From positions 1-55,866 of the forward strand of contig CAIRNJ010000050.1 in NCBI GenBank assembly GCA_903879915.1: DNA of 55,866 nt, read 5' to 3'. The translations under genes and the position numbers were made by a program. The stretch comes from an uncultured Elusimicrobia bacterium. GTDB taxonomy: Bacteria; Elusimicrobiota; Elusimicrobia; Elusimicrobiales; UBA9959. Positions 48,771 to 55,866 of the stretch are shown here, piece after piece (position 1 is the stretch's first letter; every line of letters begins with the position of its first letter). Below the pieces are notes generated by a model. The model made no database searches and was not told the origin of the DNA. It was given only the letters and a program-made list of their open reading frames with translations.

Positions 48771-50492
48771 ATGCCCGGGCTGGAAAAAATAAAGATACTT
48801 CTGGTGGAGACCGACGGCGCCGCCGCGGCCGACCTTGACGTTTTCCTGTCCGGGCGCGGCTACATCGTACGGACCGCAGCCGACCTCCAACAGGCCCTGG
48901 CCGAAACGCGGGACTGGAAACCGGACCTGCTCATCCTTAACGTTCTTTTGCAGGGCTTCAACCCGCTGGAGCTGATAGCGGACATAAAGAAGAACCCCTT
49001 CACCGAGAACCAGAAGATCATAGTGGTCTCCCGGACGGCCAGGACCGGGCTGGTGGCCGGGGCGTCCCCCAAAGTGGACGGCTACCTTACGAAGCCCGTG
49101 GATTTCGAGCTGCTCAAAGCGCAGCTACAGGGCTCCGCCGGCAAACCGTCCCCCGAAAAGCCGCTCACCGTGATGGTGGCCGACGACGACGCCGAATTCT
49201 CCGACCTCCTCACGATGTTCCTGGAGGCCAACAACTACCGGGCCATCGCCGTCAACGATCCCGCGAAGATAATGGCCGGCCTGCGCGCGGAAAAGCCCGA
49301 CGTGCTGCTGCTGGACCTGATGATGCCGCTGCGGGACGGGTTCACCGTGCTGGAAGAAATACGCGGCTCGGCCGACACCGCCAACCTGCCCGTGATAGTG
49401 CTCAGCGCCCTGCGCCTGGAGAATTACCAGGAGCGCGGCGTGCTCACCGGCCTGCCCGAGATAGTGGCCAAAGATATCCCCCGCGACCTCCTGCTGAAGC
49501 TTATCGACGAGCAGACCGCAACCTATGCCGCGCCCGCGCCCGGCGGGGAGCCGCCGGCGGCGGCGCGCCCCCGAGTGCTGCTGGCCGACGACCAGACCGA
49601 CCTGCTGCTGCTGATGAAGGAAATGATCCAGAACTCCGGCTTCGACGTGGTGACCGCCAGCGACGGCGTGGAGGCCATGAGCGTGGTCTTCGAGACCCAC
49701 CCCGACATCATAGTGCTGGACTACAAGATGCCCAGGAAGGACGGGCTGGAAGTGGCGCAGGACCTGAAGAACAATCCCCTCTTCGCCCATATCCCCATAA
49801 TCATCTGCACGGCCTACAGCGAAAAGCCCATCAAGCTTAAAGGCCTGAGCATGGGCATAGACGATTACCTGATAAAGCCGGTGGACACCGACGAGCTGGT
49901 GGCGCGCATCCGCATGATACTGAAGCGCAACAAGCAGGTGCTGGACACCAACCCGCTGTCGAAACTGCCCGGCAACCCCTCCATCCAGGCCCGCGTGGAG
50001 CGCGAGATCCAGAAGGGCGGCAAGTTCTCGGTGCTGTACCTGGACCTTAACAATTTCAAGGCCTACAACGACACCTACGGCTTCGAGGCCGGCGACCGCG
50101 TGATCAAGGCCACCGCCAACCTCCTGGTGAAGCTCACCATCCAGAACGAGAACTCGCAGGATTTCATCGGCCACATCGGCGGGGACGACTTCATTGTGAT
50201 AACGGAATTCAAGAAAAGCGAGGACCTGGCCCGCAACATCCTAAACGCCTTCGACGAGATCTCCCCCTCTTTCTACAGCAGGACCGACCGTGAGCGCGGC
50301 CACATAATCTCCACCGACCGGCAGGGGAACATAAAGAAATTCCCGTTCCTTTCCATCTCCATCGGCATAGTGAACAACGTCTCGCGCCCGCTGACGTCCT
50401 TCGCCCAGGTGAGCAATATAGGAACGGAATTAAAGAAAGCCGCCAAAGCCCCTGAAAAAAGCCACTACGTAATGGACCGCCGCCACGACTGA
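48771..50492 (+). CDS. Triple-receiver GGDEF-domain protein
   Basis: 573 residues. Receiver 1 (5-120) has Asn57 at the phosphoacceptor position (LLILNVLLQG), so it is probably inactive. Receiver 2 (132-247) has D182 and receiver 3 (267-387) has D317, both with intact sites. The GGDEF domain (about 405-573) carries G470-G-D-D-F474 in place of GGDEF; the fourth position Asp is uncommon, so diguanylate cyclase activity is uncertain. No membrane segment. The last 58 codons are duplicated 5.3 kb downstream. It is convergent with the histidine kinase of the accessory operon. Confidence 0.93.
   Translation: MPGLEKIKILLVETDGAAAADLDVFLSGRGYIVRTAADLQQALAETRDWKPDLLILNVLLQGFNPLELIADIKKNPFTENQKIIVVSRTARTGLVAGASPKVDGYLTKPVDFELLKAQLQGSAGKPSPEKPLTVMVADDDAEFSDLLTMFLEANNYRAIAVNDPAKIMAGLRAEKPDVLLLDLMMPLRDGFTVLEEIRGSADTANLPVIVLSALRLENYQERGVLTGLPEIVAKDIPRDLLLKLIDEQTATYAAPAPGGEPPAAARPRVLLADDQTDLLLLMKEMIQNSGFDVVTASDGVEAMSVVFETHPDIIVLDYKMPRKDGLEVAQDLKNNPLFAHIPIIICTAYSEKPIKLKGLSMGIDDYLIKPVDTDELVARIRMILKRNKQVLDTNPLSKLPGNPSIQARVEREIQKGGKFSVLYLDLNNFKAYNDTYGFEAGDRVIKATANLLVKLTIQNENSQDFIGHIGGDDFIVITEFKKSEDLARNILNAFDEISPSFYSRTDRERGHIISTDRQGNIKKFPFLSISIGIVNNVSRPLTSFAQVSNIGTELKKAAKAPEKSHYVMDRRHD
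50314..50492 (+). repeat. 179-nt direct repeat, copy A (3' end of the GGDEF gene)
   Basis: Identical in length and frame to 55649-55827, with about 12 differences: one in the first 110 nt and the rest near the end. Copy A uses more AT-ending codons in the divergent part (around 50417-50434) than copy B. It ends exactly at the stop codon. Confidence 0.9.
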
Positions 50493-50559
50493 GGCGCGGG
50501 AACACCCCTAATAAGAGTTCACCGGCAGCATTAGAAGTAACTGAGGGAATATATACGGC

Positions 50560-52242
50560 TTATGCCCAGGGTGGCTCTTTGCCGGTCACTTTCAGCCAGG
50601 TGAGCTGGGCGAATTTTTCGGGGCCGTGGCCGGTGGCCATGGTCAGGTCGGTAAAACCTTTTTCGTGCAGGTCTTTGGCGATGTCTTCACCTTTAACCTC
50701 GTTGCCAAGTTCGGAATCGATATAGACCGGGATGTCTTTGGCTAAAGCGTCCACGCCGGCCGCGAGATCTTCCGGAGTTTTATAGGCTTTCAGCTCCACG
50801 CCGGCGGCCTTGGCGGCCATCTTCCAGTTCATGTGCACCAGCATATCGTCGTCCAGCAGGACGGCCACGCGGCCAATGGACCGGGAGACTGCGCGCGGCA
50901 ATTCTATAAGAACAGCAGTGCCCTTGCCCGGTTCTGAAGTTATCCTGAAATTTCCGCCCCACCCCTCTACTGTGGTGCGGGCGTGGTAAAGGCCGAGGCC
51001 GTTGCCGCCGGCTTTGCCGTGAGTCTCGCCTTTTTTGCCAAGCTTCGCTAATATCGCAGGCGGTATGCCTTTGCCGTTGTCTTTCACCTCTATCAGGACC
51101 TTACCGTCCGGCGCCGATAAGCCCACCGTGACCGTGCCGGGGCCGTCAAAAGCCTCTACCGAGTTGTTCACCAGGTTGGAGATAAGCCGCTGCAGTTCTT
51201 TCGGCTCCACCAGGGCTTTTATTTCACCCAGCTCTCCGTTAAATTCTATGCTCACGCCCGCCTTGTCTTTATGCTGCAGGCGTTTCTCGGCCAGCACCTG
51301 TTCTATGAGCCCGCCCAGCGCGAAGATCTCCGGTTTAGAGCCGGCAGACGCGGCCGAAGGCGCCCGGTAGCGCTGCAGCAGGTCGTCGGCTATGCCCTGC
51401 ATGCGGGCAACCGCGCCCTCTACCAGCGCGCGCTGCTCGGCCGGCAGCTCCAGACCCTTGGCCGCAGCCCCCAGCGCCGCCAGCGGCGACCGGATATCGT
51501 GCGCCACCTGCGCTGCCAGGTCGGAGGTGGCCTTTGAAACCGCCAGCTCGCTCTCCAGCCGCGAAGCTTTCTGCAGCACCTCGGCCAGCCGGCCTATCAG
51601 CACGGCGAAAGGCGCGGCCCGCAGGCTTTGCGGCAGCGACCGTATGCTGCGCTGGATGGAGTCCTGTATCTTGAAATGCTCGCCGGCGGCCACCAGCGCA
51701 TTGGTTTCGTCCACGCAGCGCTCTATGCTGAAAATAGTCTTGATAGCGCCCACATTGGACAAAGCCAGCAGGCCCATGAAAAAGATCACTACCGTTATGA
51801 ACAGCGCGTAGTTCTGCCCGAACACGGCCGCGTTCACGTCCACCAGGTCTATCACATATTCCAGCCGCCCCAACTCGGCGCCATTAGAAATGAACGGCAC
51901 GTTCCGGGTAAGCTGCGCCCGCGGCCGGTCGTAAAGATTGCCGACGATGGCCTCTTTAAAGATCCACTTGCTGCCCTCGAATTCCACCGGGTGGAAGGTG
52001 ATGCGCTTTATATTGTCGTTCTTAACGCGCCACATTATGCGCTGCGTCTCGAAAACGTCGCCTTCGAGAAAGGCCTTCTCGAAATAAGCCGCGTTCTGCC
52101 GCATGGCGGTAAGCAGTTTATCGTCCGCCACCCGCGTGGCAGAGAACACGGAGAAAATCTGCCAGAAAGCCACGAACACCGCCACCGCCGCGGCGTAGTA
52201 TTTCCAGTTATAAGAAAGCGCCCTGCTTAAAAGTTTTACCAT
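50560..52242 (-). CDS. Membrane sensor histidine kinase with C-terminal receiver-like domain
   Basis: 560 residues. Membrane helix 1 (about 14-34), periplasmic domain (about 35-144), membrane helix 2 (about 145-165), a HAMP-like linker, HisKA with H248 (AAQVAHDIRSPLAAL), and HATPase (about 335-450; N356, N359-N360, DNGKGI, GGNGLGLYHA, EPGKGTAVLIELP). The last 105 residues (455-560) form a receiver-like fold: VAVLLDDDMLVH, Asp509 in IPVYIDSELG, and a KEPPWA ending. No response regulator is adjacent. It is the last gene of the accessory operon, its start overlapping the binding-protein gene by 7 nt. Its GC content is between that of the operon and the core genome. Confidence 0.9.
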   Translation of the reverse strand: MVKLLSRALSYNWKYYAAAVAVFVAFWQIFSVFSATRVADDKLLTAMRQNAAYFEKAFLEGDVFETQRIMWRVKNDNIKRITFHPVEFEGSKWIFKEAIVGNLYDRPRAQLTRNVPFISNGAELGRLEYVIDLVDVNAAVFGQNYALFITVVIFFMGLLALSNVGAIKTIFSIERCVDETNALVAAGEHFKIQDSIQRSIRSLPQSLRAAPFAVLIGRLAEVLQKASRLESELAVSKATSDLAAQVAHDIRSPLAALGAAAKGLELPAEQRALVEGAVARMQGIADDLLQRYRAPSAASAGSKPEIFALGGLIEQVLAEKRLQHKDKAGVSIEFNGELGEIKALVEPKELQRLISNLVNNSVEAFDGPGTVTVGLSAPDGKVLIEVKDNGKGIPPAILAKLGKKGETHGKAGGNGLGLYHARTTVEGWGGNFRITSEPGKGTAVLIELPRAVSRSIGRVAVLLDDDMLVHMNWKMAAKAAGVELKAYKTPEDLAAGVDALAKDIPVYIDSELGNEVKGEDIAKDLHEKGFTDLTMATGHGPEKFAQLTWLKVTGKEPPWA

Positions 52243-53630
52243 CTAAAATCCGCCACCTCAGGGTATTCCAAAAAATCCCGCCCTATATCAATATTTTTAA
52301 TTTTCCTCGGATAATAAAAAACACGTTGATCCTGATACAGCGGGAGCACCAATGATCTATTCGCTATTTCATCCGCCAAAGCGGAGGCCAGTTTGGTTTG
52401 AAGAACTGCGTCGCTTTCATGCCGCATCTTTTCGTACTTTATAGTCAACGCCGGCATATCAAAATCAAAAAAACCATCTTTCGGGAGAACCCCGTCAAGA
52501 AACGCGCTGTACTCCGGGCGAGTCGCATCCAGCCCCATTATCGTTAAATTGTACGGATGCGGACGCTCCAAGGCGGTTTGCAGAAATTCGCTAGGTGCCA
52601 TAACCTTTACTTTTATGCCGACCCCGTATCTTTTTTTAAATTCCTTAAAATATTCCTGAAAAGTCTCTGCTGTATACGATCGCCACGCGACAAATATCAG
52701 ATCCGGAAACCCACTCAATTTTTCTCCGGTGCAGGTTTGAGGCGGTGCCCCTGCCTTGGCCCCAGTTACACCTACAGGAAAAACTGTTTGCACCTGCACA
52801 AAAGACTTCTTGTGTGGATAAAATACTTCACGCAATTTTTTTATATCGACACAGTTATAGACCAATTTACGCAACTTTTCATCGCGCACATTTAATATTA
52901 ACACTGCAACTTTAAGCACCATGTTGACGAAGGAGTATGACCGCTCAGGGACCCACTCCGGGCTATCCGTCTCAGGTATTCTGTTAACGTCCGATATATC
53001 ATGATCTTTCAGTTTCGGATCAGAAAGTCCGTTATATAGATGGCAGATTATAAAGTTGTATCCGTTCCGCACCTGATGCTTTCTTGTCAGTGATATTTCC
53101 TCATTAGTAAGCCTCGTCAGCCGGAACTCTCCCAGGCCAGCCTCATTCCCCCCCGGCAACTTCACCGTAGGGGCATTATCATACAGAGAGAGAAAAGCCA
53201 GGTATTTGGTCTGCTTGTCTGAGAACTTAACTTTTACGCAAGCGGATGTTTCTGTAACAGTGAAAGCCGCGCCGAACATCCGGGTCTTGGATCCAATAAA
53301 TTCACGCAGATACGCTACTGAAAACGGGTGATCGCTGTCAAAGTAGCGCGATGTGTCCGGACAGAAAGTATACTCGGTGGAATCAATGCTGCGGCTCCAG
53401 TCGGTAAGTATCTTAGAGCGGAAGTTCTGCCCATCGTCCTGGCGCAAAAGTGGTTCATGGGTTTGTTTTAGTATATACAACGGAATGTTAAGACTCGCCA
53501 ATTCCGTGGAAATCCTGGACGGCAGCATAGTAAACAGCACCTGCCACGTGTCCGCCCTTGCCGCTCTGGCGGATAAAGCAGAGAATGGCAGCAGCGCACA
53601 GACAGCGATTATTCTAAAAAATGTACGCAT
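52236..53630 (-). CDS. Periplasmic family-5-like (oligopeptide-type) solute-binding protein
   Basis: 464 residues. A signal peptide (about 1-26, ending SARAARA-DT) is followed by a binding-protein fold. The HEPLLRQDDGQNFRSKILTDWSRS segment is characteristic of SBP family 5 (OppA/DppA-like: EPL, then a WS segment), as is FLAYLS-like KYLAFLSLYDNAPTV and a C-terminal VLPLYQDQRVFYYPRKI. Such proteins bind peptides or other small solutes; no permease or ATPase genes are linked. In this operon it may deliver a ligand to the kinase rather than import it. The gene is much less GC-rich than surrounding chromosomal genes. It overlaps genes on both sides. Confidence 0.8.
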   Translation of the reverse strand: MRTFFRIIAVCALLPFSALSARAARADTWQVLFTMLPSRISTELASLNIPLYILKQTHEPLLRQDDGQNFRSKILTDWSRSIDSTEYTFCPDTSRYFDSDHPFSVAYLREFIGSKTRMFGAAFTVTETSACVKVKFSDKQTKYLAFLSLYDNAPTVKLPGGNEAGLGEFRLTRLTNEEISLTRKHQVRNGYNFIICHLYNGLSDPKLKDHDISDVNRIPETDSPEWVPERSYSFVNMVLKVAVLILNVRDEKLRKLVYNCVDIKKLREVFYPHKKSFVQVQTVFPVGVTGAKAGAPPQTCTGEKLSGFPDLIFVAWRSYTAETFQEYFKEFKKRYGVGIKVKVMAPSEFLQTALERPHPYNLTIMGLDATRPEYSAFLDGVLPKDGFFDFDMPALTIKYEKMRHESDAVLQTKLASALADEIANRSLVLPLYQDQRVFYYPRKIKNIDIGRDFLEYPEVADFRW

Positions 53631-54310
53631 TCAGGTAAAAAGCCCAGCTTGACGAAGAAACGACGCGAACGCATATTAAAAGAATCGGCTGTGGCCATTA
53701 TTCGCCCCTTGGCGTGTTCCTTCAGCCAATCTGTAAGCGCTGCATGTGCCTGCGCCCGCTGCGGCGGAAGCAGTTTGTCGGAAATCCACACCCAAGCTAC
53801 AAGAAGGGCCGGCCTTCCCGCCGTATCTTTCCAATCAATCGTGTTTACTACGCCTTGTATTAAACCGCGCTCTGTCAAAACGGCTGAGCCGCGCAGTGTG
53901 ATAGCTTTCCGCAAAAACCACACGTCTTCTTTGCGGTTCTTTTTTAAGTCCAACAATTCTTTGCATGGAGCATAAAAATATTTTTCCACTGACATTTTGT
54001 ACAGCCGCCGCAACTCTTTTAAAGAGGCCGGCTTACGCCAGCGCATACCTTTACCCGTCTGCGCGTGATTCTTCAATAACTGCACTTTTGATGCGTAATA
54101 TGCCACACGCAGCTTAAGTTTACCTTCGGTTTTCCTGCAGAGCTTATCTATTACCTTGTTGCCACCGGGAGGGAAGATGAAAGATACCCGCTGACAGGCA
54201 TTCCTATTCAGAAGGGATTTGGCGAGCGATACTGTGATTTTTTCAGGCCTGTCTACTCTGTATATCGCGGCTGTTTCCGTTCTTTTTATCAGGATGCATC
54301 TTTTTTTCAT
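53609..54310 (-). CDS. GNAT-like N-acetyltransferase
   Basis: 233 residues from ATG 54310; an in-frame TTG lies 9 nt upstream. The C-terminal part fits a GNAT fold: VLTERGLIQGVVNTIDW, RPALLVAWVWISDKLLPPQRAQAHAALTDWL in the acetyl-CoA region, and SFNMRSRRFFVKLGFLPE as the ending N-x-R-A-x-x-x-Y-x-x-x-GF motif. The N-terminal 70 residues are less patterned. It may acetylate a peptide or amine made in the same operon; that is inference. The start lies inside the radical SAM gene (overlap about 68 nt) and the end overlaps the binding-protein gene by 22 nt. Confidence 0.75.
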   Translation of the reverse strand: MKKRCILIKRTETAAIYRVDRPEKITVSLAKSLLNRNACQRVSFIFPPGGNKVIDKLCRKTEGKLKLRVAYYASKVQLLKNHAQTGKGMRWRKPASLKELRRLYKMSVEKYFYAPCKELLDLKKNRKEDVWFLRKAITLRGSAVLTERGLIQGVVNTIDWKDTAGRPALLVAWVWISDKLLPPQRAQAHAALTDWLKEHAKGRIMATADSFNMRSRRFFVKLGFLPECVHFLE

Positions 54311-55172
54311 ATCTTTCAATCAAGGATTCACACAGCGAACATTCCGCCGACTGCGCGGGAGTGTAGTCCGGTTTCGGGATATTCAACATCTTCGGCCAGC
54401 GCCTGAAAGGCACAGATGCCGCCAGTTTGTAAAAGTCGCTAGCCATCAGCCTTTCCGGGGTGGGATAGCAGAGCTTGGCCGCCGAGCCGTTGAACATAAG
54501 GGAAGAGCAGCAGGTCGTGAAACCTTTCCCAGCCACATACATCAGGCGCCCTTTACTCGGGCACCGTTTAGATAATACACGTTTGTCAAAAGAGAGATAA
54601 TCATATCCCAGGGCATTCTTTTTAGCACGCCCCATAGGAAGGATAGATTGCACCCCGATCTTGAAATCTCCCAGCTTGCGAAGCACCTGCACTAAATGCA
54701 GGTCCGCGGGATCTTGAACTGCGAAAAGAACGTCGAAGTCTATATCGCGCTTCAGACAAGCCTGGTAGAGGTTTTTCACTGCCCCAGTGTTCACGAACTC
54801 CCCGTGGAACTTATCATACGACATATGCACTTTGGTCAATTTATCAAAAGAATCCAACACTTCCAACGCAGCGGCCTCCGTTACGGCGAAATTGCCGTTC
54901 GTGGTAAGGATTACCTTAGTCCGGGCAAGCCTTTCTACCGAGGCCAACATTAAATTTATCTCTTTTATGTAAAGTGTGGGTTCACCGCCAACGAACGCCA
55001 GTTCAGAGAGGCGGAACTTGTTTATCGTTTGCGTTATAGCGCGAATCTCCCCGGCCGTCAGTTTGTAACCGGGGTCCATGTGTGCAGTACAACAATGCTT
55101 ACACTTTATGTTACAGGCAAATCCTACGAGAACCCCCAGATGGGAAGGCATCAGGGAGACGGCGGGGATCAT
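54243..55172 (-). CDS. Radical SAM protein with C-terminal cysteine cluster (SPASM/twitch-like)
   Basis: 309 residues. The SAM iron-sulfur motif is C20-x3-C24-x2-C27 (GFACNIKCKHCC, with a further C28), then VGGEP (61-65), LTTNGN, and VHMSYDKFH. The C-terminus contains C204, C221, C222, C235 and a C278-x2-C281 pair, enough for one or two auxiliary clusters of the SPASM/twitch kind common in peptide-modifying enzymes. The start ATG 55172 shares one base with the stop of the small exported protein gene, so they are translationally coupled. The obvious hypothesis is that it modifies that peptide. Confidence 0.88.
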   Translation of the reverse strand: MIPAVSLMPSHLGVLVGFACNIKCKHCCTAHMDPGYKLTAGEIRAITQTINKFRLSELAFVGGEPTLYIKEINLMLASVERLARTKVILTTNGNFAVTEAAALEVLDSFDKLTKVHMSYDKFHGEFVNTGAVKNLYQACLKRDIDFDVLFAVQDPADLHLVQVLRKLGDFKIGVQSILPMGRAKKNALGYDYLSFDKRVLSKRCPSKGRLMYVAGKGFTTCCSSLMFNGSAAKLCYPTPERLMASDFYKLAASVPFRRWPKMLNIPKPDYTPAQSAECSLCESLIERYEKKMHPDKKNGNSRDIQSRQA

Positions 55173-55375
55173 TATAAACGCTTGGCGGGATCCGTGTCAG
55201 TATCTATCTTTACGCCTTCGCAAACCATTATGGAACCTTCTGCCGCACTTATGGTGCTTGCGAATTTAGCCTTTTCAGGCGCTGACAGTTTGGAAACATA
55301 CTGTTCAACCTGGGCTGTTGAGAACAGTCCGGCAGTAACAAAAAAAGCGATTATCATCTTATCTTTGGTTTTCAT
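55172..55375 (-). CDS. 67-residue exported small protein, possible peptide precursor
   Basis: From ATG 55375, chosen because GGAGGGGAG lies at ideal spacing; the frame is open further upstream but without support. A basic start (MKTKDK) and a hydrophobic stretch (about 7-19) form a signal peptide ending near STAQ. The mature part (about 45 residues) begins VEQYVSKLSAPEKAKFAST, contains one cysteine (C52 in IMVCEG), then an acidic, Lys/Arg-ended tail (KIDTDTDPAKRL). No known RiPP leader motif was recognised. It is first in the operon, followed directly by radical SAM, GNAT, binding protein and kinase genes. Alternatives are a small lipoprotein-like or structural peptide. Confidence 0.75.
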   Translation of the reverse strand: MKTKDKMIIAFFVTAGLFSTAQVEQYVSKLSAPEKAKFASTISAAEGSIMVCEGVKIDTDTDPAKRL

Positions 55376-55437: not shown

Positions 55438-55472
55438 TAAAAAAGGGAAAGCAAAATACTTTTGCTTTCCCT
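55438..55472 (-). terminator. 13-bp hairpin plus T tract just upstream of the accessory operon
   Basis: Bases 55444-55456 pair with 55460-55472, a perfect 13-bp stem with a 3-nt loop; read leftward it is followed by T6-7 (complement of 55438-55443). It lies 63 nt before the start codon of the small peptide. It may end transcription from the right or act as an attenuator. The 176 nt between it and the repeat copy (55473-55648) contain no gene that I can support. Confidence 0.7.
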
Positions 55473-55648
55473 GGATACACCGGATTACGGTCCGGTCGTG
55501 GATACTCTGGGGCCGATCCCCCAAATTACAAGGAAGACTACTACTCTAGTTTTGCAGAGAACTTCGCTTTCTGAAAGGGCCTTTAGACCTACACACTGCC
55601 GGGACCTGCCAACATTCTTCTTACACGCGCTACGTAGCAATTTTTATG

Positions 55649-55827
55649 CCGACCGGCAGGGGACCATAAAGAAATTCCCGTTCCTTTCCATCTCCATCGG
55701 CATAGTGAACAACGTCTCGCGCCCGCTGACGTCCTTCGCCCAGGTGAGCAAGATCGGCACCGAGCTGAAGAAAGCCGCCAAAGCCGCGGAAAAAAGCCAC
55801 TACGTGCTGGACCGCCGCCACGACTGA
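55649..55827 (+). pseudogene. 179-nt direct repeat, copy B: detached 3' end of a GGDEF gene
   Basis: Same length and frame as the last 179 nt of the GGDEF gene (50314-50492), ending at TGA 55825-55827, but with no gene body before it: upstream frames are short and unrelated. It reads DRQGTIKKFPFLSISIGIVN onward to YVLDRRHD. The first 110 nt differ from copy A at one base; the last part differs more. Its codons there (AAG, ATC, GGC, ACC, GAG, CTG) look native, GC-ending, compared with copy A. It is a displaced original gene end or a duplicated fragment. Confidence 0.88.
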
Positions 55828-55866
55828 GCGCCTTTAGCGATTTAAGGGTAAACGCATATGGCAGAG

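Follow-up and report, generated by a model that had tools for sequence, protein, structure and literature searches.

A polymorphic peptide, radical SAM, binding-protein and kinase operon behind a 2'-deoxyguanosine-class riboswitch in Elusimicrobia: a candidate signalling module

Why would a bacterium encode a short leader-bearing peptide, a radical S-adenosylmethionine (rSAM) enzyme, a peptide-binding protein and a membrane histidine kinase in a single operon? The question is raised by contig CAIRNJ010000050.1, a complete contig of an Elusimicrobia metagenome assembly, whose 55,866 nt are referred to here as the window. Five genes on its minus strand, between positions 50560 and 55375, run leftward and overlap at each junction, as the initial annotation of this DNA had described. 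We propose that they form a polymorphic operon for self-sensed, modified-peptide (pheromone-type) signalling, gated by a product of DNA breakdown, and we consider this reading evenly poised between right and wrong. The individual parts belong to known kinds. However, a literature search of incomplete coverage (it did not extend to the original 2'-dG-II papers or to the bulk of subscription journals) returned no description of the gene combination, no account of binding-protein-centred specificity for an EpeE-type product, and none of the gating of peptide signalling by 2'-deoxyguanosine (2'-dG).

Gene order and its recurrence

The operon begins with a gene for a 67-aa precursor peptide (55172-55375), whose stop shares one base with the gene for a 309-aa rSAM protein of the EpeE/YydG (peptide epimerase) type (54243-55172). 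The latter is overlapped by a GNAT-like acetyltransferase gene occupying a variable accessory slot (53609-54310); its open reading frame (ORF) opens at TTG 54319, ATG 54310 being the likelier start. The gene for an exported, family-5-type peptide-binding protein, the proposed receptor (52236-53630), overlaps the GNAT gene by 22 nt and is itself overlapped by 7 nt by the gene for the membrane histidine kinase (50560-52242). No permease or ATPase gene of a transporter is found in the operon, nor any immunity gene, dedicated peptidase or ABC exporter.

About 27 further loci, belonging to the same bacterial family or to Bdellovibrionota, keep the order peptide, rSAM, optional accessory enzyme, binding protein and kinase, and because the module recurs in this way the operon is not a chance arrangement. 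In the 59 genomes of the family, the rSAM is present in 23 and the binding protein in 26, with the genes side by side. Across the phylum, the binding protein was present in 28 of 341 genomes, and its named relatives come nearly all from Elusimicrobia.

The initial annotation had suggested searching other genomes for this gene order, and had reasoned that rSAM and kinase genes without the small gene would speak against its model. The peptide gene precedes the rSAM gene in 27 of the 27 module loci with intact upstream sequence, the window included, and no locus of this kind has rSAM and kinase without it. One locus whose upstream region is cut by a contig end (L070) was left out of this count, and the second, divergent rSAM of L052, upstream of that locus's riboswitch, was given no module. 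Four Bdellovibrionota-type records (L167, L168, L173, L177) and a further two Elusimicrobia lineages (L171, L175) share this order, and in them, too, the rSAM gene follows a small ORF with a leader.

The GNAT gene had been annotated as a regular member of the operon, and as a fixed part it does not hold. Its Pfam match is weak (E 0.015; 16.4 bits against a cutoff of 25.4) and covers only the C-terminal motif region. At other loci, the slot after the rSAM gene is empty or encodes an M3 peptidase, a transglutaminase-like protein or a serine hydrolase of the beta-lactamase/D-peptidase family, and a nitroreductase is added at some module loci.

Control region

The initial annotation stopped short of the region in front of the peptide gene, where we found a riboswitch, an overlapping terminator and an operator-like motif, all on the minus strand; the riboswitch and the operator change the biological meaning of the operon. 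First comes the operator-like motif TAGGTCTAAAGGCCCTT (consensus TRGGNCYNNNGNCCCTT; 55575-55591), followed by a -10-like element AAAACTAG (TATACTAT in many homologues; 55546-55553), picked out as an alignment column and taken as a putative promoter. A 2dG-II (2'-deoxyguanosine) riboswitch aptamer, RF03165, occupies 55466-55536. Its Rfam score is 84.2 bits against a gathering threshold of 60, with the full length and the three-way-junction core matched. The operator-like motif is separated from it by 38 nt, and the 5' base of the motif lies 55 nt before it. Judging from its riboswitch class, this aptamer would selectively bind 2'-deoxyguanosine.

Directly after the aptamer lies a strong intrinsic terminator, GGGAAAGCAAAA-GTA-TTTTGCTTTCCC-TTTTTT (55439-55471), with a fold of -18 kcal/mol and conservation in homologues. 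Its 5' arm overlaps the 3' strand of the P1 helix (55473-55466); therefore, the ligand is predicted to turn the operon on, making the riboswitch-terminator pair a predicted ON switch. An aptamer precedes the peptide gene, with the same ON-type terminator, in 22 of the 26 module loci with enough upstream sequence. In a sibling genome (G047), the operon is a naturally broken copy (L044), in which other sequence, adjoining an IS110-type transposase, stands in place of the 5' half of the aptamer, and an in-frame deletion has removed about 59 residues from the rSAM.

The operator-like motif is found at most 140 nt upstream of 25 of the 39 riboswitches outside the matrix set (L076 and L118 being one site), versus 1 of 677 control pieces, and mostly begins 50-56 nt before the aptamer. 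In the genome of the window, the strict motif occurs four times, versus four times for a reversed control pattern, so that there is no enrichment by count; two of these four sites are upstream of riboswitches, and another is upstream of a gene for a secreted endonuclease I.

A variable peptide, its enzyme and its putative receptor

Residues 1-36 of the precursor (55375-55268) form a conserved signal-like leader, and residues 37-67 (55267-55175) a hypervariable core; across the homologues, hypervariability covers the last 25-35 residues. The leader consensus, MKNKDKIIAAFLVSVGLFSxxQAxQYVxxLSxxEK, opens with basic residues and includes a brief hydrophobic segment and an AxA-like site. A search with a peptide profile picks out exactly one ORF per module among 3751 ORFs, with nothing else better than E 0.47, and when each peptide is left out in turn it is still recovered with E at most 2e-8. 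The peptide gene differs from its nearest relative by four silent codons and one amino-acid-changing codon, differences that, though few, are in line with coding. The single Cys pointed out in the initial annotation shows no conservation in the homologues, which speaks against thioether or other Cys-based chemistry. The cores are frequently hydrophilic and rich in D, K, P and S.

What could the enzyme do to such a peptide? The best curated model for the rSAM is the YydG peptide epimerase TIGR04078 of NCBIfam, at 69.8 bits, with its cutoff of 300 not reached. A profile built from 26 rSAM homologues aligns end to end with EpeE (E 5.5e-26), and EpeE is also the best fold match of the predicted structure (E 2e-16). 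The extra C-terminal cysteines that had been noticed are present (C204, C221, C222, C278, C281). Together with the C20/24/27 triad of the radical SAM CxxxCxxC motif, C204, C221, C278 and C281 are invariant, and C222 occupies the position of the catalytic Cys223 of EpeE, the proposed hydrogen donor in that enzyme (PMC8326336). Because EpeE is matched in both sequence and fold, with the cluster cysteines and the Cys223 position, L-to-D epimerisation is the likeliest chemistry. It is rather unlikely, in our judgement, that the enzyme instead installs another modification (a crosslink, a thioether or other), a possibility that would leave the signalling logic the same and so overlaps with our proposal. 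The YydG score far under the cutoff speaks for it, as do the lack of a Cys223 equivalent in several homologues and, by our reading of the alignment, of a clear counterpart of EpeE Asp210. However, the best sequence and fold matches are to EpeE and not to crosslinking enzymes, and a core Cys that is not conserved is contrary to thioether chemistry. The homologues with Asp at the Cys223 position are encoded at 6066-6959 of L047, 3468-4331 of L063, 6727-7671 of L064, 9072-9929 of L065 and 10837-11787 of L052.

The binding protein had been assigned to family 5, an assignment that the fold bears out and Pfam does not: the Pfam search of the window protein gave no match, PF00496 included. Weak profile matches are to nickel/oligopeptide-binding chains. 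The AF2 model (pLDDT 88.7) has the OppA/DppA/PrgZ fold, its top PDB matches being family-5 proteins (E 4e-24), and many homologues carry, by reading of their sequences, a lipoprotein-type signal. The pheromone receptor PrgZ, one of these fold matches, likewise captures a signal as a binding protein. However, PrgZ serves peptide import, whereas the Elusimicrobia operon has a kinase gene next to the binding-protein gene and no transporter. The kinase, annotated from the start as a membrane kinase, has HisKA and HATPase_c domains (Pfam), two transmembrane segments and an extracytoplasmic sensor of about 110 aa. To this description we add an extra C-terminal domain that appears receiver-like by eye, with conserved LDDD, YIDSELG, ATGH and K residues; it is unrecognised by Pfam, and phmmer against PDB gave nothing meaningful for it.

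In most homologues the extracytoplasmic sensor is 85-96% identical to that of the window, while the rSAM and the binding protein are about 40% identical. Across 19 loci, the distance between cores correlates with that between binding proteins (r 0.46, p 0.0005) and with that between rSAM proteins (r 0.41, p 0.0015), and not with that between kinases (r -0.03). The correlation of core and binding protein persists with the rSAM controlled (r 0.30, p 0.0065), binding-protein and kinase distances are not correlated, and the relation between sharing the same accessory enzyme and core similarity is borderline (r 0.17, p 0.051). Nucleotide identity stays at about 45% along most of the gene for the binding protein, climbs to about 80% over the final 25 codons and reaches as much as 92% where the kinase gene starts. 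Such a pattern would be expected if a cassette were exchanged ahead of a conserved kinase, and a swappable pheromone cassette would look like this. We considered whether the kinase is conserved merely through recent copying and rejected this; because silent third positions differ by about 30-50%, the sensor has been kept by selection and not by recent conversion. The correlations support a pairing of peptide and binding protein but fall short of proving binding, because linkage alone can give part of such a correlation.

The same data bear on two other explanations. The main rival to our proposal is a self-sensed bacteriocin: an epipeptide-like antimicrobial, own or foreign, would be sensed by the binding protein and kinase for autoinduction or resistance, with 2'-dG standing for lysed competitors or prey. 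EpeE, the nearest enzyme that has been studied, produces an epipeptide with antimicrobial action, to which cells respond through a two-component envelope stress response (PMC8326336; PMC7026026), a hypervariable core would also suit an arms race, and the Bdellovibrionota that carry the module are a lineage that includes predators. Nevertheless, we find this explanation unlikely: the operon has no immunity gene, dedicated peptidase or ABC exporter, the cores are often hydrophilic, and co-divergence of core and binding protein next to a nearly invariant kinase sensor suggests a receptor and its ligand rather than the sensing of damage. Alternatively, the small protein could be a membrane-bound or periplasmic subunit of a kinase-binding protein sensor for outside nutrients, such as peptides from lysis. 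The hydrophobic stretch of the leader could then serve as an uncleaved anchor, nutrient peptides are the usual ligands of family-5 proteins, and the riboswitch would point to scavenging. Yet a hypervariable C-terminus that tracks the binding protein would be unusual in a structural subunit, and a dedicated epimerase-like rSAM would have no evident role, which makes this explanation quite improbable.

Proposed mechanism and the wider regulon

If the operon is indeed a signalling module, we would expect it to work as follows. An upstream regulator would bind the operator and transcription would begin, the nascent leader RNA folding into the 2'-dG-II aptamer; where 2'-deoxyguanosine is abundant, the P1 helix would prevent the terminator and the operon would be read. 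The EpeE-like rSAM would modify the C-terminal part of the 67-aa precursor, most likely by L-to-D epimerisation, the interchangeable accessory enzyme (the GNAT here) would also modify it, and its own signal sequence would direct the modified precursor out of the cell. Once mature, the peptide would be captured by the dedicated family-5 binding protein, acting as its specific receptor, and the conserved sensor domain of the kinase would read the peptide-loaded binding protein. Capture of a signal for sensing by a periplasmic binding protein is known from LuxP-LuxQ and ChvE-VirA. The initial annotation had already suggested that the kinase senses a modified, exported peptide by way of the binding protein, and gene order and co-divergence lend this idea partial support. 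We infer ligand binding, the modification chemistry, export, the pairing of peptide and receptor, and the activation and output of the kinase alike from the sequences.

Several observations weigh against this scheme. Two loci (L072, L074) have the binding protein and kinase with neither peptide nor rSAM, and a third (L073) has the peptide without the rSAM. The module is found without the riboswitch at L045, L054 and L057 and in Bdellovibrionota, where no riboswitch was detectable at L167, L168, L173 and L177; therefore, gating by 2'-dG is not essential to the module. Asp replaces Cys at the Cys223 position in L047, in L063-L065 and in the divergent copy of L052, so the chemistry may differ between loci, and the variability of the core leaves a common modification site not obvious. 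Export of the peptide is deduced from a reading of its leader, the co-divergence of the core may partly reflect linkage within the cassette, and a response regulator gene is not present in the operon.

Polymorphic quorum-sensing loci such as ComQXPA and Agr link a precursor, a modifying enzyme and a sensor kinase, and place a hypervariable cassette next to a conserved part. The Elusimicrobia module resembles them in this linkage and in the sharp boundary of the cassette at the conserved kinase. It differs in that a separate periplasmic binding protein seems to determine specificity, with the kinase sensor conserved and no response regulator gene. It is likewise comparable to EpeXEPAB (yydFGHIJ) of Bacillus subtilis, where a small precursor is followed by an EpeE-type rSAM with the auxiliary cluster cysteines and the Cys223 position, and where a two-component sensor is involved. 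In contrast, the Elusimicrobia precursor bears its own signal-like leader, and the operon lacks the peptidase and the ABC exporter, includes a peptide-binding protein and a kinase, and lies under a riboswitch. That riboswitch belongs to the same aptamer class as the other 2'-dG-II riboswitches (RF03165), although we found no description of this class controlling operons of precursor peptide, modifying enzyme, binding protein and kinase in Elusimicrobia.

In the family of the window, the riboswitch reaches well beyond this module. At least one 2dG-II copy is present in 53 of the 59 genomes, with several copies per genome, and the pair of riboswitch and operator-like motif also controls other operons of a peptide, a YcaO protein or rSAM, a binding protein and a kinase. 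These encode an SBP_bac_5 protein and a kinase, some together with an exported peptide and a YcaO protein, others together with a SPASM-like rSAM; over the output part, several of the kinases share 68-73% identity with that of the window. Operons with YcaO-like, SBP_bac_5-type, kinase and small exported peptide genes behind 2dG-II were seen at L108, L109 and L123 and at L110, L111 and L120; apparently, they represent a second and a third precursor family under the same control.

It is tempting to speculate that, in Elusimicrobia, 2'-dG-II and one operator jointly control swappable cassettes, built around an EpeE-like rSAM, a YcaO protein or a SPASM-like rSAM. Each cassette would bring its own binding protein, most would also supply an exported precursor peptide, and all would feed into kinases with a common output module, thereby coupling the degradation of extracellular DNA to communication by modified peptides. 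We offer this broader idea tentatively, as somewhat short of an even chance. If it and the signalling scheme are true, the 2'-dG-II riboswitch would gain a biological role in licensing peptide signalling and DNA scavenging, and cells may start a peptide conversation when DNA is degraded nearby. There would also be a new architecture for peptide sensing, with specificity in the binding protein and a generic kinase, and many natural sets of precursor, enzyme and receptor whose pairing is directly testable. Moreover, signalling biology would be opened in a phylum known mostly from metagenomes.

Other genes behind the riboswitch encode exported proteins with a membrane protease of the CPBP/Rce1 type, a phosphatase or a protein of the metallo-beta-lactamase fold. 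At L112-L115, L117, L122 and L128, 2dG-II is followed by an exported protein of about 200 aa and then a membrane protein (CPBP/Rce1-type where tested, at L114). Elsewhere in the genome of the window, an exported metallo-beta-lactamase-fold protein lies behind operator and riboswitch (L106, 655-1665), and a secreted endonuclease I behind the operator alone (L178, 1577-2482). Endonuclease I, ComEC and a signal receiver domain have been reported in the gene contexts of 2dG-II (PMC8872408), and the Elusimicrobia contexts agree with this.

Beyond the operon, the 3' end of a GGDEF response-regulator gene (50314-50493) is repeated with 93% identity at 55649-55828, at the contig end. We set aside mobility via this 180-nt flanking repeat: because the second copy is closer to the gene of a sibling genome (97.8% identical) and lies at the contig end, it may be an assembly join. 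Finally, a weaker operator-like site occurs at 1283-1299 of the window (minus strand), upstream of an exported Beta-lactamase2-family gene (336-1235).

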